64,000 bases of DNA from Prolixibacteraceae bacterium (GTDB lineage: Bacteria > Bacteroidota > Bacteroidia > Bacteroidales > Prolixibacteraceae), in the NCBI GenBank assembly GCA_018648265.1, contig JABGRN010000006.1, positions 44,845 through 108,844 on the forward strand, read 5' to 3'. Under the pieces are notes generated by a model, which was not told the DNA's origin, ran no database searches, and saw nothing but the letters and a program-made list of their open reading frames with translations. Positions 43,800 through 50,783 of the stretch are shown piece by piece. Position numbers and translations under genes: made by a program. The stretch's first letter is position 1, and each line of letters starts with the position of its first letter.

Positions 43800-44975
43800 T
43801 TATTTGGTTGAATTTTTTTGGATTGCATTATATTTATCCATCTGGTTAAGACGGTAATACAAGCTTTTAATTGATTCAACAGTGGCTGCATCTTCAGGAT
43901 TTAGTTCGTAACATTTTTCCATAAATGGCAGTGATTTTTCCCAATATTTATCAACTTCTTTTATTACTTTTTCATACGAGGCACTATCGTCGGATGGAAT
44001 ATTTTTCGCACTTTCAAATAATTGTACGCCTTCATTATAATAAATTACTCCAAGATTAAAATAGCCCATAAATAAATCAGTATCTAATTCAATTGCTTTT
44101 TCGTAAGATATTATTGCATTTTCATTGTCGTGATTTTTATCTAACAAATTTCCCATTGCCAAATAATATACCGCTTTATCGGGTTCGCGACTAATTGCAA
44201 GTTCTAAAAAATGCATTGCTTCTTCCTTTCGATCCATATTCAGATACAGCTGAATCATGTTGGACAAAAGTTCGTTATTTTCCGGGTATTTTTCAAATCC
44301 TTGTTTTAATGATTCCGATGCATTTATTGTGTCTTTTTTCTGTTCATAAGCCCTTGAAAGCCAAAGGTAAGTTGTTGCCCCATTGTAACCATGCCGGGCT
44401 GCCTCCCGGAAATACCTGACAGCCTTGTCTGAATCATCGGTTTTTAGAGCCATCATTCCGGCATTATAAATTATTGCCGTATCAATGCTCATCAGATTAT
44501 CGGTTTTAAACAACGGAAGATTGTTTATTTCCAGTATTTGTTCAAATGAAACAAGAGCTTTTGAGTAATTTTCTAAATTATATGCCTCAACAGCTTGATC
44601 CTGAAAATCGTTGTTTAGAAGTGTTAATTTGATTTTCACGCTTTTTGAGAATTTATTTTTTGTATCCAATTCCAAAGCTCTTTTGTAAGAATTTAGTGCT
44701 TCGGTTAGCGGATCGGTGCTTAATGCTTTGATCTTCTCATCTTTCGAATGAAAAACAGCCTGATAAATTTCTCCTCTCACTTCCCAGGTACGAGGCCAGT
44801 TGATACTTTTTGCTGATTTCTCATTGTTTTTATCAATCGTAGTTTGAATTGTTTTGAACGCCTGTTCCAATTTCCCTGCTTCTTTAAAGTTTAATGCACT
44901 TACGACTTTCCCTTTTTGTGCAAACGATGAGTTTAACATTAATAATGAAATCAGGACTAAAATTATTTTGTTCAT
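43800..44975 (-). CDS. Exported TPR-repeat protein
   Basis: A 391-residue exported protein with a signal peptide (about 1-19, ending NSSFAQ). It holds several tetratricopeptide units, clearest at about 150-345 (DSDKAVRYFREAARHGYNGAT, YLAMGNLLDKNHDNENAIISYEKAIELD). TPR arrays mediate protein binding. The first 53 codons and the upstream 135 bp are almost the same as in the chimeric gene at 45159, which shows a recent duplication. It sits downstream of the BlaI/M56 genes on the same strand, so it may be part of that operon or a secondary one. Confidence 0.85.
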   Translation of the reverse strand: MNKIILVLISLLMLNSSFAQKGKVVSALNFKEAGKLEQAFKTIQTTIDKNNEKSAKSINWPRTWEVRGEIYQAVFHSKDEKIKALSTDPLTEALNSYKRALELDTKNKFSKSVKIKLTLLNNDFQDQAVEAYNLENYSKALVSFEQILEINNLPLFKTDNLMSIDTAIIYNAGMMALKTDDSDKAVRYFREAARHGYNGATTYLWLSRAYEQKKDTINASESLKQGFEKYPENNELLSNMIQLYLNMDRKEEAMHFLELAISREPDKAVYYLAMGNLLDKNHDNENAIISYEKAIELDTDLFMGYFNLGVIYYNEGVQLFESAKNIPSDDSASYEKVIKEVDKYWEKSLPFMEKCYELNPEDAATVESIKSLYYRLNQMDKYNAIQKNSTK

Positions 44976-45110
44976 AGTTCGGATTATTTAATTGTTTAAA
45001 TCGTAGAATATTTGATTGTCTTTCTTTAAGTTGCATTTGTTTACAGAAGAAAGATTAGATTACTCAGAATATTTTTGTTAAAACTTGAAATTATTGCAAA
45101 ACAAATTTTA
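44821..45110. repeat. Direct duplication, copy A
   Basis: About 290 bp comprising the first codons of the TPR gene, the upstream spacer and an M56 tail. It is nearly identical, with only about seven differences, to 45574-45864 (offset about 753 bp). Confidence 0.85.
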
Positions 45111-45146
45111 CAGTTATTGCTATTGTTTTCCCTTTTATCGTCGATT
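45085..45146 (-). pseudogene. Remnant tail of an M56-like gene (copy 2)
   Basis: The minus-strand frame reads RFLIKSTIKGKTIAITVKFVLQ and a stop, closely matching the end of the M56 protein, but without any upstream reading frame. It lies between the TPR gene and the chimeric gene. Confidence 0.65.
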
Positions 45147-45158
45147 TAATCAAGAACC

Positions 45159-45728
45159 TTATTTAGACAGCATTAAATTTCCTGACCTCTTTTTTGTTGA
45201 ATCTTCATTAAATTCAATTATATAAGAATAAGTTCCTTTTTTAATATTATTCGTATTATCCTTCCCATTCCACCATTCAGGTTTAGAATTAGGATTTCCG
45301 TTATGTTTGTATTCCCATATTAAATCCCTATTACTATTGAATATTTTCATTTCAAAGTTAGGATATTGTTTTTCCAATCCTCTTACTTCAAAAACATCAT
45401 GCACTCCATCTCCATTTGGTGAAAATCCATTTGGAACAATAATATTCTTATTAGCCGAATTGCGCTTTGTAATTAGCTCATCCCCAACAATTGGTGAATC
45501 TGATTTATTAGAATTGTATTTGTTTTTTGTCTGAATTATTATTTTGTCTATTTCGGAAGTACTTTTTACTTTCTCATTGTTTTGATCAATCGTAGTTTGA
45601 ATTGTTTTGAACGCCTGTTCCAATTTCCCTGCTTCTTTAAAGTTTAATGCACTTACGACTTTCCCTTTTTGTGCAAACGATGAGTTTAACATTAATAATG
45701 AAATCAGGACTAAAATTATTTTGTTCAT
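45159..45728 (-). CDS. Chimeric exported protein with a T9SS type B sorting domain
   Basis: A 189-residue protein made of three unequal parts. Residues 1-53 equal the signal peptide and start of the TPR protein. Residues about 54-72 (KVKSTSEIDKIIIQTKNKYN) match two separate segments of the M56 protein. Residues about 95-189 form a gliding-motility-associated (TIGR04131-type) C-terminal domain (IIVPNGFSPNGDGVHDVFE, WWNGKDNTNN, GTYSYIIEF), which directs proteins to the Type IX secretion system. It is probably a recombination product, now exported to the surface if the gene is expressed. Function unknown. Confidence 0.75.
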   Translation of the reverse strand: MNKIILVLISLLMLNSSFAQKGKVVSALNFKEAGKLEQAFKTIQTTIDQNNEKVKSTSEIDKIIIQTKNKYNSNKSDSPIVGDELITKRNSANKNIIVPNGFSPNGDGVHDVFEVRGLEKQYPNFEMKIFNSNRDLIWEYKHNGNPNSKPEWWNGKDNTNNIKKGTYSYIIEFNEDSTKKRSGNLMLSK

Positions 45729-45864
45729 AGTTCGGATTATTTAATTGTTTAAATCGTAGAATATTTGATTGTCTTTCTTGAAGTTGCATTTGTTTACAGA
45801 AGAAAGATTAGATTACTCAGAACGCTTTTGTTAAAAACTTGAAATTATTGCAATACAAATTTTA
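45574..45864. repeat. Direct duplication, copy B
   Basis: Partner of 44821-45110. It spans the first codons of the chimeric gene, its upstream region and the last codons of the intact M56 gene, showing that the duplicated unit joined an M56 end to a TPR-gene start. Confidence 0.85.
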
Positions 45865-48800
45865 CAGTTATTCCAACCGTTTTTCCTTTAAATTCCGTGA
45901 TATCGATAATCGGCATTTTATTGATGACCCGTCTTGTTTCGTCAACCATAAGTTGCTCTTCAATTTTTCTTGCATTTTCCGCTTCCGCTTTTGTTCCGTA
46001 ACCGTTAACAACAACTTCTTTTGTTTTGTTACCCGCAACAACTACTTCACCAACTCTTATTTTAATATACCCGTCCTTCTCGTTAATCGAAGTAATATTT
46101 CCCTTTTTATCAATTTGCACCGATAATTTTACGACTTTTTCGCGATTTGCTTCTTGTGCCAAAACAGGATACCTGATTTCCTTTGCAATAAATTTTCGAA
46201 ACTTTAACTCAGTATCTATTTTATCGTTTTCGGAAGTACTTTTTACTTTCACTTTGTCGGTGTAAAGTTTTCGGCTTGAAACTTCGTAAACACCGTATTT
46301 CCCTAATTCACCATATTTTTTTACAGCTTCTTTTGGTTCAACTTTATTAATGTCCTTTATCAAGTCGCGGTCGAGTGTGTGTAAATTAAACTCTGTAGAT
46401 TTTCCGTTAAGTATTACGGGTAAAGTAATTTGGGCTGCATGAACACCTTTTATTGAAATTTCAATTACTCCGTTTTTTCCTCTGTCGCCATATTTAGAAA
46501 TAGCGGATTCATCTTTTAAAACACTAACCGATTGTATCGTTTCCGGATCGATGTCATCCATCGATTTATAACCTGTAATAATTCCATCGGTTACAATTAA
46601 TGGTTTTTTATTTTCGGTGTTGTACTTGGTTTTTGTCTGAATTATTATTTTGTCTATTTCGGGTCCTTTACCATCATAAATATTTGTGTCGGTTTGATTT
46701 TTTTTCACTTCCATACTGATAATATCTGTAACCGGAATATCATTTATATTGCCATAAAATTCCTTTCCGTCAACGATTAATGCCGGATTTCCAGGTAAAT
46801 TCTTTGAAGTGAATTTCACCGAATTTTTTGTAGTTACCAGAATCACCCCATTTTTCCCTTTTTCGCCATATTTAGAAATAGCAGATTCCTTTTTTAAAAC
46901 ACTAATCGATTGTATCGTTTCCGGATCGATGTCATCCATCGATTTATAACCGGTAATAATTCCATCGGTTATAATTAAAGGTTTGTCATCGTCTAATGTT
47001 GATAGGGAAACCCCTTTTTCGCTAATAATATGCCTTTTATCAGCAGGTTTAAAACTTAAGTTTTTCCAGGCAGTTCCCGATTTCCCATTCAGTTTTATTT
47101 GATCGTTTACTTTTTCAATTTCGAATAAAAATCCTGAAAGGGTTTGGTCGATTTCTGAAGAACTTATTCCTTTTTTATCTATTACAACTGGATTATTATT
47201 TTTTATAGAAAATGTTAATTCCTTAAAAGCACATCCAGACAGCCCCCGAAGTTTTATTTTGTTTTGGTGAACTTCAATTGAAATCAAAAAACTTTCTAAT
47301 TCTACTGTCTTCTTATTTAGTGCTTTCTTTTTAGTAGTTATATAAATAACTCCATTCTTCCCCTTTTCGCCATAAAGTTCAGTGGCTGTTTTGTTTTTTA
47401 AAACATCTATACTGGCAATATCTTCAACCGTAACATCGTTTATGTTCCCATCAAATTCCTTCCCGTCAACAATGATAAGTTTATCGCTTGTGTTAAAATC
47501 TTTTTTGAATTTTGTTTCAATACAAATTACCCCGTTTTTGCCTTTCTCTCCGTACAAATCAGTTGCCGATTTATCCTTTAAAACATCAATACTTTCAATG
47601 TTTTCAGGAGGCAAATAGGTAATATCTTCCACTTCTTTTCCATCAACAATATAAAGTGGTGGATTTTTCATATTTGGACTTATCCGAACAACCTCCGAAT
47701 CAAATTCCATGTTTGAGGAAGGATAGCCAACCGCAATTTTTGTAGCGTTTTTATTGTTTTCATTTCTTTTCTCAAGAGATTCGATTTCTAATCCAAGCTT
47801 ACTATATTTCCTAATCTGTTTTACTGTTGGGACAAAATTTATGGGAACGGTATAAGATACGTTTACAATTTTGCCATTTTGTTTGCCGGGCTTCCATTTA
47901 GGGAGTGTATTTACAACACGCAATGCTTCTTTGTTAAGTGACGGATCAACACCCCTTGAAATTTTCGGATCATTAACCTTTCCATTTTTATCAATAATAA
48001 ATGTTACATATACTTTTCCATGTATTCCCTTCTCCAATGCAATCTCCGGATATTTGATACTGTAATCAATGTATTTCTTCAAAGCTTTTTCGCCTCCTGG
48101 AAATTGTGGCATTTCTTCTACTTTATAAAAAACTTCATCACCCTGGCTTTTTTTGCCGGTTTGTTTCGATTTGTAAGTTGAAATTAGGATATCGTGCGAT
48201 TTTGCTTTTTCATTGGGAACTAACTCAACATCAATTTCTGATTGACCGGCAACAAGAATTTCTTCCATTTTATAATCAATCATCCAAAAAATTAAAGTCT
48301 CATTCTTTTCTTCTAATTTGATTTCGTAATTACCCATACGATCTGTAATTGTCCCGATGGTTTTACCTTTAATAAGAATTGATGCTCCTGAAATTGGGTC
48401 GCTATTTTGGTCGGTTACTTTTCCTTTGACAACATGTTTGTATTTTGTGTTGATTGTAACACTTTTTGTACCTACTGAAACACTTTTATCTGAATTCAAC
48501 TTTATATTAATTTCATTTTTATTATCTACTGGAATTTCCAATTTTTCGAAACCAACCATTATAAAAACCAGCGTTTCATTTTCATTATCGAGCCGGAGTT
48601 CGTAATTCCCATTTGCATCGGTAATTGTTCCAATTGTTTTACCTTTTACGATAATTGATGCCCCTGAAATTGGGTCGTCTTTTGGATCGGTTACCTTTCC
48701 CTTTACTATTATTTTCTCCTTATTTTCAATGCGTTTCATTAAAAGTTTATATTCCTCTGAATCGATTTCTGTATTAAAAGTCAGCACACCATTTTTACCT

Positions 48801-49918
48801 CTTTCGCCGTACAATTCAACGGCTTGGTTCGGTTTAATCGATTTGCCAAACTTTAAATCAGTTTCATTAAAAACAATTTTTTCGATTACTTCTTCCCCAT
48901 TAAAAAATAATAGAGGCGCATCTTCTCCATAATCTTGTAAAGTGAAAATCCCATCGTGATAAATCTTTGATAAAAATTCTTTATCCGTCATTTTTAAAAA
49001 ATCATTGTCAAATTGACTCAATTCAATTTTGTTTTCAGGCTGAATAATTTCAGTCCTCACTTCCCTGCTCGACAACCCCATCACTAAAATAGCGAGGAGC
49101 GGAAGAACCACCAATTGTTTTAAAACGGCGTACTTGCTTTCTGTTTTCTTTTTCATCATAATAATGCGGTTTTTAAGTTGAGAACCATTCAAAGCAGTCA
49201 GAAAAGGTGCAACCCCTTTTTTGTCGGCTAATCCAACCATGGCCAGTTGGTAAGCTTGCGGGTTGTGGTTTTCCGCAATTTGATGATCGGTTTTATATTC
49301 TAAATTGTTTTTTATGGCATCTTTTATTAACCAGGCAAAAGGATTAAACCACTGAGCAAGAAATAGCAGTTCAGCAAAAAGAATGTCTAGCGTGTGTTTT
49401 TCTTTTACATGAATGTTTTCGTGGCTGACAATTATTTCGAGGTTGGGGTGGGAAAGTGTTTTCTCGGAAAGAACTATTTTGTTGAAAAATGAAAAGGGAT
49501 GAATATCTTTATTTGTAACGTTAACTTTTACCTGAAAAAGGTTTTTAATCCAACTTCGTTTTACAATTGAAATGGCTTTTAAATGCCCGAGTAAAAGATG
49601 GAATAAAAAACCACACGAACCTAATATGTACAATCCAAATAAATAATGATACCATTGAAAAACAAATCCGATGGGTTGTACAATTTCTGTGGAGTTTGCT
49701 ATGTATGCGAAACTATTAGAATTAAAAGAAACGGGTTCAACAATTTTTACGGTTGTAAATGTAATTAACGGAATTAAAAAACTCAGTGCCAGCGAAACCG
49801 GCAAATAAAACCGGTTAAACATAAAGTGTTTTTGGTTCTGAAAAAGAACAAGATAAGCAAGATAGAATGCTCCGGTTGCAAGCGCCGATTTCCCGATGTA
49901 AAACAAATAGTTTTCCAT
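45845..49918 (-). CDS. BlaR1-like M56 metallopeptidase fused to TonB-C and plug-like repeats
   Basis: An unusually long (1357-residue) member of the BlaR1/MecR1 M56 family. The N-terminal part (about 1-285) has four hydrophobic segments, the zinc motif HENIH (166-170) and a downstream NLEYKTDHQIAE (about 205-216). Carboxypeptidase-regulatory-like domains are at about 402-475 and 496-570, a TonB C-terminal-like domain is at about 605-695, and a second is at about 1235-1357. Seven segments (about 329-385, 752-803, 813-863, 978-1032, 1044-1096, 1104-1158, 1166-1217) repeat the SusC plug signature (VLKDKSATDLYGEKGKNGV). Two further similar segments (about 876-975) lie between them. The start overlaps the blaI stop by 1 bp. 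It probably cleaves or inactivates BlaI on a periplasmic signal. Confidence 0.85.
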   Translation of the reverse strand: MENYLFYIGKSALATGAFYLAYLVLFQNQKHFMFNRFYLPVSLALSFLIPLITFTTVKIVEPVSFNSNSFAYIANSTEIVQPIGFVFQWYHYLFGLYILGSCGFLFHLLLGHLKAISIVKRSWIKNLFQVKVNVTNKDIHPFSFFNKIVLSEKTLSHPNLEIIVSHENIHVKEKHTLDILFAELLFLAQWFNPFAWLIKDAIKNNLEYKTDHQIAENHNPQAYQLAMVGLADKKGVAPFLTALNGSQLKNRIIMMKKKTESKYAVLKQLVVLPLLAILVMGLSSREVRTEIIQPENKIELSQFDNDFLKMTDKEFLSKIYHDGIFTLQDYGEDAPLLFFNGEEVIEKIVFNETDLKFGKSIKPNQAVELYGERGKNGVLTFNTEIDSEEYKLLMKRIENKEKIIVKGKVTDPKDDPISGASIIVKGKTIGTITDANGNYELRLDNENETLVFIMVGFEKLEIPVDNKNEINIKLNSDKSVSVGTKSVTINTKYKHVVKGKVTDQNSDPISGASILIKGKTIGTITDRMGNYEIKLEEKNETLIFWMIDYKMEEILVAGQSEIDVELVPNEKAKSHDILISTYKSKQTGKKSQGDEVFYKVEEMPQFPGGEKALKKYIDYSIKYPEIALEKGIHGKVYVTFIIDKNGKVNDPKISRGVDPSLNKEALRVVNTLPKWKPGKQNGKIVNVSYTVPINFVPTVKQIRKYSKLGLEIESLEKRNENNKNATKIAVGYPSSNMEFDSEVVRISPNMKNPPLYIVDGKEVEDITYLPPENIESIDVLKDKSATDLYGEKGKNGVICIETKFKKDFNTSDKLIIVDGKEFDGNINDVTVEDIASIDVLKNKTATELYGEKGKNGVIYITTKKKALNKKTVELESFLISIEVHQNKIKLRGLSGCAFKELTFSIKNNNPVVIDKKGISSSEIDQTLSGFLFEIEKVNDQIKLNGKSGTAWKNLSFKPADKRHIISEKGVSLSTLDDDKPLIITDGIITGYKSMDDIDPETIQSISVLKKESAISKYGEKGKNGVILVTTKNSVKFTSKNLPGNPALIVDGKEFYGNINDIPVTDIISMEVKKNQTDTNIYDGKGPEIDKIIIQTKTKYNTENKKPLIVTDGIITGYKSMDDIDPETIQSVSVLKDESAISKYGDRGKNGVIEISIKGVHAAQITLPVILNGKSTEFNLHTLDRDLIKDINKVEPKEAVKKYGELGKYGVYEVSSRKLYTDKVKVKSTSENDKIDTELKFRKFIAKEIRYPVLAQEANREKVVKLSVQIDKKGNITSINEKDGYIKIRVGEVVVAGNKTKEVVVNGYGTKAEAENARKIEEQLMVDETRRVINKMPIIDITEFKGKTVGITVKFVLQ
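46490..46985 (-). repeat. Internal near-identical DNA repeat in the M56 gene
   Basis: Two about 110-bp units (46499-46605 and 46867-46975) share almost all bases of atcgtttccggatcgatgtc and the neighbouring words. They encode the two TDGIITGYKSMDDIDPETIQS plug-like repeats, indicating recent internal duplication. Confidence 0.8.
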
Positions 49919-50277
49919 TAGTTTTCTTCTTTAATCATTTTAACCAATTCATCCAGTTCTTCATTTGTAAGCCCTTTTTCTTTTACAAAAAATGCCACTG
50001 CACTTTTGTACGAATTGTCGAAATAATCGCTTACCACTTGTTTCATAAATGTTTGCCGGTATTCTTCTTTCGAAATTATTGCAAAGTATTGGTAGGTATT
50101 TCCGTACTGTTTAAACCCAATAATTCCTTTGTCTTGCAACAACCTAACCAACGACGAAATAGTATTGTAATGTGGTTTTGGTTCGGGATATTTTTCAATG
50201 ATATCTTTTACAAAAGCTTTCTCAAGTTTCCAAAGGATTTTCATAAGTTCCTCTTCCTTTCGTGTTAATTTTTTCAT
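49918..50277 (-). CDS. BlaI/MecI/CopY-family transcriptional repressor
   Basis: A 119-residue repressor. The N-terminal winged helix (about 5-80: KEEELMKILWKLEKAFVKDI, HYNTISSLVRLLQDKGIIG) binds DNA, and the C-terminal helices (about 85-119, AVAFFVKEKGLTNEELDELV) form the dimer interface. It is translated just ahead of the M56 gene (1-bp overlap, TAATG). It is expected to bind the three palindromic sites at 50624-50679, and to be removed when the M56 peptidase is activated. Confidence 0.93.
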   Translation of the reverse strand: MKKLTRKEEELMKILWKLEKAFVKDIIEKYPEPKPHYNTISSLVRLLQDKGIIGFKQYGNTYQYFAIISKEEYRQTFMKQVVSDYFDNSYKSAVAFFVKEKGLTNEELDELVKMIKEEN

Positions 50278-50614: not shown

Positions 50615-50645
50615 ACAAATATACAACTGATTTTTCAGTTATGCA
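50615..50645 (-). promoter_or_regulatory. blaI-M56 promoter
   Basis: On the minus strand TTG (50643-50645), a 20-base spacer and TATATTTG (50615-50622) match the Bacteroidota promoter consensus. The first operator (50624-50639) fills the spacer, so repressor binding would block RNA polymerase. Confidence 0.75.
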
Positions 50646-50679
50646 ACTATATTTTCAGTTTTTTAACTGGCTTTTCAGT
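50624..50679. promoter_or_regulatory. Three tandem BlaI operator-like palindromes
   Basis: Sites AACTGATTTTTCAGTT (50624-50639), AACTATATTTTCAGTT (50644-50659) and AACTGGCTTTTCAGTT (50664-50679) start exactly 20 bp apart, close to two helical turns. Each is a 6-4-6 inverted repeat (site 2 is degenerate in its left arm). They overlap the blaI promoter. Confidence 0.75.
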
Positions 50680-50783
50680 TAACGATTTTTTTTGCGAGCA
50701 GGATTTCATTTTTTGTTGGGGTGAAATATAAAAACGAATCACTCGTTCGTTTTATTAAGTTCCGAAGAATTAACTATTTTTTT

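Follow-up and report, generated by a model that had tools for sequence, protein, structure and literature searches.

A 64,000-nt stretch of the genome of a Prolixibacteraceae bacterium (assembly GCA_018648265.1, contig JABGRN010000006.1, positions 44,845 to 108,844 of the forward strand; hereafter the window) encodes a 1357-residue protein with an M56 membrane metalloprotease domain, adjoining the gene for a BlaI-type repressor. This protein is best explained as a BlaR1-family antirepressor in which the beta-lactam sensor has been replaced by a tail of the parts through which TonB and SusC transporters make contact, namely SusC N-terminal extension (NTE) domains, TonB boxes, half plugs and TonB C-terminal domains (CTDs). 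Because TonB CTDs and TonB-box motifs both occur in it, the tail carries both partners of the TonB/TonB-box interaction, and domain, fold and motif evidence places one box within the C-terminal TonB CTD itself. We propose, with a probability of roughly 0.4, that the tail reads the availability of TonB or of TonB boxes through this contact and so gates the cleavage of BlaI. What is new here is the TonB box inside the C-terminal TonB_C domain, present in all 29 family members that have this domain, and the conserved tandem operator on the blaI promoter.

An M56 protease paired with a BlaI repressor

The features of the locus, in window coordinates, are as follows.

50616-50681 (-), tandem BlaI-type operator of three dyads (AACTGA-N4-TCAGTT and variants, spacing about 20 bp) by a TAnnTTTG promoter element
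49918-50277 (-), blaI, BlaI/MecI/CopY-type repressor, 119 residues (Penicillinase_R, 3.5e-30)
45845-49918 (-), M56 antirepressor, full gene, 1357 residues
49064-49918 (-), M56 membrane metalloprotease domain, residues 1-285 (H166ENIH at 49409-49423; E207xxxD211 at 49286-49300)
48782-48919 (-), plug half 1, degenerate, residues 334-379 (34 bits)
48497-48706 (-), SusC-type NTE domain 1 (CarbopepD_reg_2), residues 405-474 (Z 15.2 against the NTE of BT3090, 9hfj)
48221-48430 (-), SusC-type NTE domain 2, residues 497-566 (Pfam, family hidden Markov model, structure model)
47819-48091 (-), TonB_C domain 1, canonical, residues 610-700 (Pfam; Z 10.5 against TonB CTD)
47519-47662 (-), plug half 2, residues 753-800 (85 bits)
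47339-47482 (-), plug half 3, residues 813-860 (73 bits)
47087-47284 (-), beta-rich module, residues 879-944 (structure model of low to middling confidence)
46835-46984 (-), plug half 4, residues 979-1028 (74 bits; DNA 91% identical to plug half 6)
46664-46789 (-), plug half 5, degenerate, residues 1044-1085 (40 bits)
46457-46606 (-), plug half 6, residues 1105-1154 (74 bits)
46280-46417 (-), plug half 7, degenerate, residues 1168-1213 (35 bits)
45848-46222 (-), TonB_C domain 2, residues 1233-1357, conserved C-terminus of the family (116 bits; Z 7.4 against TonB CTD)
45989-46051 (-), TonB-box-like insert within TonB_C domain 2, residues 1290-1310, GEVVVAGNKTKEVVVNGYGTK

The M56 open reading frame (ORF) is intact and overlaps blaI by one base. 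A preliminary description, made from the sequence, had given its coordinates and frame exactly and had recognized the anatomy of an M56/BlaI antirepressor, which is borne out by a Pfam match to Peptidase_M56 (5e-10), the HENIH motif at residues 166-170 and the adjoining blaI. A profile built from the M56 region at the N-terminus matched BlaR1 in the Protein Data Bank across residues 5-282 (E 5e-7). H166E167xxH170 and E207xxxD211 are invariant in 15 sequences, and their spacing is identical to that of H201EXXH/E242xxxD in Staphylococcus aureus BlaR1, whose protease faces the cytosol and whose C-terminal sensor lies outside (PMC9834060). The protein thus combines the HEXXH and ExxxD motifs of a gluzincin, within a BlaR1-matching membrane domain, with an adjacent BlaI-type repressor and a shared operator, as expected of an antirepressor. 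By homology to BlaR1, the tail is predicted to be periplasmic. No penicillin-binding or transpeptidase sensor domain was found in the M56 protein with Pfam or NCBIfam, and the NCBIfam model blaR1_generic scored 34.7 bits (cut-off, 400).

A tail assembled from SusC and TonB parts

An AlphaFold2 model of the whole tail showed separate beads joined by low-confidence linkers (mean pLDDT 67), and the last two plug halves with TonB_C domain 2 were modelled at a pLDDT of 79. The two carboxypeptidase-regulatory-like and two TonB-C-like domains of the preliminary description were recovered by Pfam, which detected CarbopepD_reg_2 in two stretches and TonB_C in two, and profile searches for M56, TonB_C and Plug all returned matches. 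The best fold match for the modelled NTE domain 1 was the solved NTE of the SusC protein BT3090 (9hfj; Z 15.2, 80/80 residues), and the modelled TonB_C domains 1 and 2 matched TonB CTDs with Z scores of 10.5 and 7.4, respectively. Foldseek with the C-terminal model gave no match at E <0.001; a second fold comparison of that model ranked TonB CTDs top. The protein has the C-terminal domain of a TonB energy transducer as well as the NTE and TonB-box motif of SusC/RagA proteins. Its N-terminus is the M56 domain rather than a single helix, no proline-rich linker was seen, and neither a complete plug nor the 22-stranded barrel of SusC is present, no barrel domain having been detected with Pfam or NCBIfam (TIGR04056 scored 311 bits against a cut-off of 368).

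A family-specific hidden Markov model located seven plug-like copies in the tail, of which four scored strongly (73-85 bits), the other three being degenerate (34-40 bits). This agrees with the number of repeats and the SusC-plug resemblance first described, but the repeats correspond to the C-terminal half of the SusC plug only: Pfam Plug matched four stretches, the best covering profile positions 56-107 of 107. NCBIfam found four SusC_RagA signatures. A half plug matched SusC plugs strongly in sequence (7.7e-15) and weakly in fold (Z <=4.8, 39% identity, in the model of the C-terminal part); among the fold matches listed for the whole-tail model, which are those of NTE and TonB, plug halves did not appear. 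The near-identity of repeat DNA that had been reported is confined to plug halves 4 and 6 (91% over 144 nt), the remaining pairs being 61-80% identical.

The beta-rich module between plug halves 3 and 4 (residues 879-944), which had no Pfam match, contains a twofold internal repeat (FLISIE...KLRGLSGCAFKELTFS and FLFEIE...KLNGKSGTAWKNLSFK) and also occurs in a relative (L017). Elsewhere in the source genome, on contig 129 (L216:4239-8045, reverse strand), five tandem ORFs of 224-232 residues encode SusC plugs without barrels. Each has a signal-peptide-like start, a CarbopepD_reg-like domain and a SusC plug, with a GYG box in most, and by sequence they appear to be an array of stand-alone plug proteins.

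A TonB box within the C-terminal TonB_C domain

The TonB box of Bt1763, VDEVVV, is experimentally required for function, and in SusC proteins the box is placed after the NTE (PMC7782687). In the M56 family, a SusC TonB-box motif (DEVVVVGY) is inserted into the C-terminal TonB_C between strand 2 (beta2) and helix 2 (alpha2) in 29/29 members having this domain, with some divergence, and several relatives show the motif in a second context, about 30 residues before the plug halves. A position matrix trained solely on 20 TonB boxes of the source genome's SusCs placed its best window in the C-terminal insert of most family tails, 57-81 residues from the end; in the source protein this window was TKEVVVNGYG (15.1 bits), a score equalled by 0/200 shuffles. 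Its upstream neighbour, GEVVVAG, is a strand in both structure models.

The insert is absent from L218, the source genome's TonB candidate with a proline-rich linker, and a profile of the boxed domain found a full-length match in that genome to this M56 protein only. A class-wide sample yielded one other M56 protein, L222, with a similar insert (NDVVVTAY) at the same position. A TonB_C with a built-in box is thus characteristic of the Prolixibacteraceae family alone, L222 being the one similar case elsewhere.

A tandem operator on the blaI promoter

The tandem AACTGA-N4-TCAGTT-type dyads upstream of blaI, with their spacing of about 20 bp, adjoin a TAnnTTTG element, the promoter hexamer of Bacteroidota. 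Such dyads precede blaI in all 18 of the relatives fetched first, and the strict tandem operator was found in 22/37 genomes of the genus (reversed control, 0). In the source genome, the full operator-plus-promoter pattern occurs once with zero mismatches, at the blaI-M56 operon, and sites with at most one mismatch number 28 vs 12 in the reversed control, about twofold. A large BlaI regulon was not found in this genome by a pattern search that divergent sites would escape. Three relatives have five further operator sites between them: four (in L069, L070, L071 and L073, each near position 1500) precede genes for DUF4934/six-bladed-propeller proteins, and one, in L072, precedes the gene for an outer-membrane protein with CarbopepD_reg, plug and barrel. 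These genes are candidate members of the BlaI regulon. Where one genome has a paralogous blaI-M56 operon (L002), the dyad upstream of its blaI is related yet different (AACTA...TAGTT), and this difference suggests that the paralogous circuits may be insulated from one another.

Downstream genes encoding TPR and CHU_C proteins were considered as the core output and ruled out, since the TPR neighbour is present in two relatives only. In the window, a 320-bp duplication (44817-45135 vs 45570-45889, 96% identity) runs across the M56 3' end and the start of the TPR gene, and touches the ORFs at 45159-45728 (-) and 43800-44975 (-). The upstream copy has given rise to a chimeric ORF made of the TPR-gene start, a 43-nt piece of M56 plug repeat (95% identity) and a CHU_C type IX secretion domain.

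Module shuffling among relatives

Relatives in the Prolixibacteraceae retain the M56/BlaI pair, while their downstream genes vary. About 30 relatives in this family shuffle the same tail modules. Their tails have 0-5 plug halves, 0-3 NTE domains and usually one or two TonB_C domains, whereas as many as four TonB_C domains occur in an M56 clade at a greater distance; other M56 proteins sampled across the class commonly have one or two plug halves and seldom three or more. The seven plug halves of the source protein are the highest copy number here, as the preliminary description had sensed in calling their number unusual, but such arrays are family-wide and variable in count, and the protein is the extreme of a distribution rather than unique. 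Because relatives share the architecture with 0-5 copies, a special design based on uniquely many repeats can be ruled out.

Alternatively, the tail may sense nothing. Its modules might only bridge the periplasm or bind to peptidoglycan or the outer membrane, with the signal read elsewhere, e.g., in the loop joining helices 2 and 3. The abundance of SusC genes, of which the source genome has more than 30 loci, would then explain how SusC parts were captured by recombination. Module number and order do vary freely, two relatives (L128 and L054) have little beyond M56 and the C-terminal TonB_C, and the ratio of nonsynonymous to synonymous substitution rates (dN/dS) of the tail, 0.18-0.37 vs about 0.1 for M56, is two to three times the M56 value. 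Those ratios nonetheless indicate purifying selection on the tail, and the TonB-box insert is constant in position and sequence, and we regard a pure spacer or anchor as unlikely, if the best of the alternatives.

A possible sensor of TonB-dependent transport

If the tail does sense TonB contact, the built-in box, or in relatives the boxes before plug halves, may occupy a TonB CTD in cis at rest. Competition for this contact would come from TonB, or from TonB boxes that SusC transporters expose when loaded with substrate, so that the conformation or tension of the tail would report the state of TonB-dependent transport, with the NTE and half-plug array setting reach and the number of binding sites. 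The copy number of this array probably drifts by recombination, and is highest in the source protein. By analogy with BlaR1, the change in the tail would lift autoinhibition of the M56 domain and lead to cleavage of BlaI, whose loss would derepress the blaI-M56 operon, as operator mapping supports; this operon has the only recognizable operator-promoter in the source genome, whereas some relatives might also derepress a small number of genes for propeller proteins or receptors.

Several lines of evidence argue for such sensing. The M56 signature and spacing are those of BlaR1, blaI adjoins the gene in relatives, and the tandem operator is conserved; NTE and TonB_C folds, the sequence matches of the plug halves and the 29/29 box inserts identify the tail modules; the box is required in Bt1763 (PMC7782687), the insert is absent from L218 and the tail is under purifying selection; and the operator in one relative precedes a CarbopepD_reg-plug-barrel gene. 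The earlier proposal of a tail sampling TonB or TonB-dependent receptors gains support from the SusC NTE fold, the TonB-box motifs and the conserved boxed domain. A broader version, in which a TonB CTD is checked by a TonB box in its own fold until competing TonB-SusC contacts open the switch to BlaI proteolysis, and which would make these proteins a general Bacteroidota sensor of TonB-dependent transport load, is doubtful.

Other observations weigh against sensing of TonB contact. The aligned box copy in the source protein (GEVVVAG) is degenerate relative to those of its relatives. L128 has no plug halves, and L133 and L129 have no C-terminal TonB_C, so neither is strictly required. Moreover, BlaI in the source genome seems to control its own operon only, which makes a useful output hard to place; this single-operator regulon is the least explained part of the proposal.

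A tail of this composition could instead monitor outer-membrane biogenesis. It would resemble unassembled SusC in its periplasmic part, the NTE and plug, and compete for chaperones, proteases or the beta-barrel assembly machinery (BAM), so that upon failed SusC assembly these factors would leave the tail and M56 would be activated. Half plugs do look like incomplete SusC plugs, and deletion of the Bt1763 NTE was dominant-negative, with a suggested effect on biogenesis or cell function (PMC7782687), but this gives no account of the TonB CTDs or of the TonB box within one in 29/29 relatives, and we consider it rather improbable. That the M56 protein is its own effector, once induced a sink for TonB or TonB boxes that throttles TonB-dependent transport with BlaI as feedback, fits its own promoter being the only clear operator-promoter in the genome and the lack of conserved downstream genes, but is very unlikely given that three relatives have more operator sites before other genes and that the pattern search would overlook divergent ones.

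Sensing of TonB availability would matter to these bacteria. In Bacteroidota, dozens of SusC transporters on which the cell depends are served by few TonB proteins, and the literature searched does not describe how TonB demand is sensed or which signals the many Bacteroidota M56/BlaI pairs answer to. A regulator with both sides of the TonB-receptor contact offers a concrete, testable hypothesis for both, and its boxed TonB_C may represent a naturally occurring TonB CTD that has a ligand in cis. The boxed domain and the transport-sensing hypothesis deserve follow-up.

Comparison with known systems

Each part of the protein is known, and M56 proteins bearing domains of this kind are widespread across Bacteroidia; our literature search found no publication that describes TonB, NTE or plug domains in an M56 protein. 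Like BlaR1/MecR1 with BlaI/MecI of Staphylococcus and Bacillus, the system pairs an M56 gluzincin of the same H..EXXH/ExxxD spacing with a repressor of the BlaI family and has an operator at its own promoter, but the penicillin-binding sensor is replaced by SusC and TonB parts and the operon has no beta-lactamase gene. With SusC/RagA TonB-dependent transporters it shares the NTE domain, TonB-box motif and plug sequence; unlike them, it repeats the C-terminal half plug, has no barrel and is anchored in the inner membrane. It has the CTD fold of TonB energy transducers, whereas its anchor is the M56 domain instead of a single helix and proline-rich linker, and its C-terminal copy has a TonB box inserted.

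In FecAR-type and STN/anti-sigma signalling, periplasmic transporter modules report the state of transport to an inner-membrane regulator. The role of STN in transporter signalling is also covered in PMC7782687. The M56 protein resembles these systems in idea; however, no STN domain was found in it, here the regulator itself carries the transporter modules, and it would act through proteolysis of BlaI. It also resembles those other M56 proteins of Bacteroidia that have plug halves and TonB_C; their set of modules is the same, but they mostly have one or two plug halves, and up to five.

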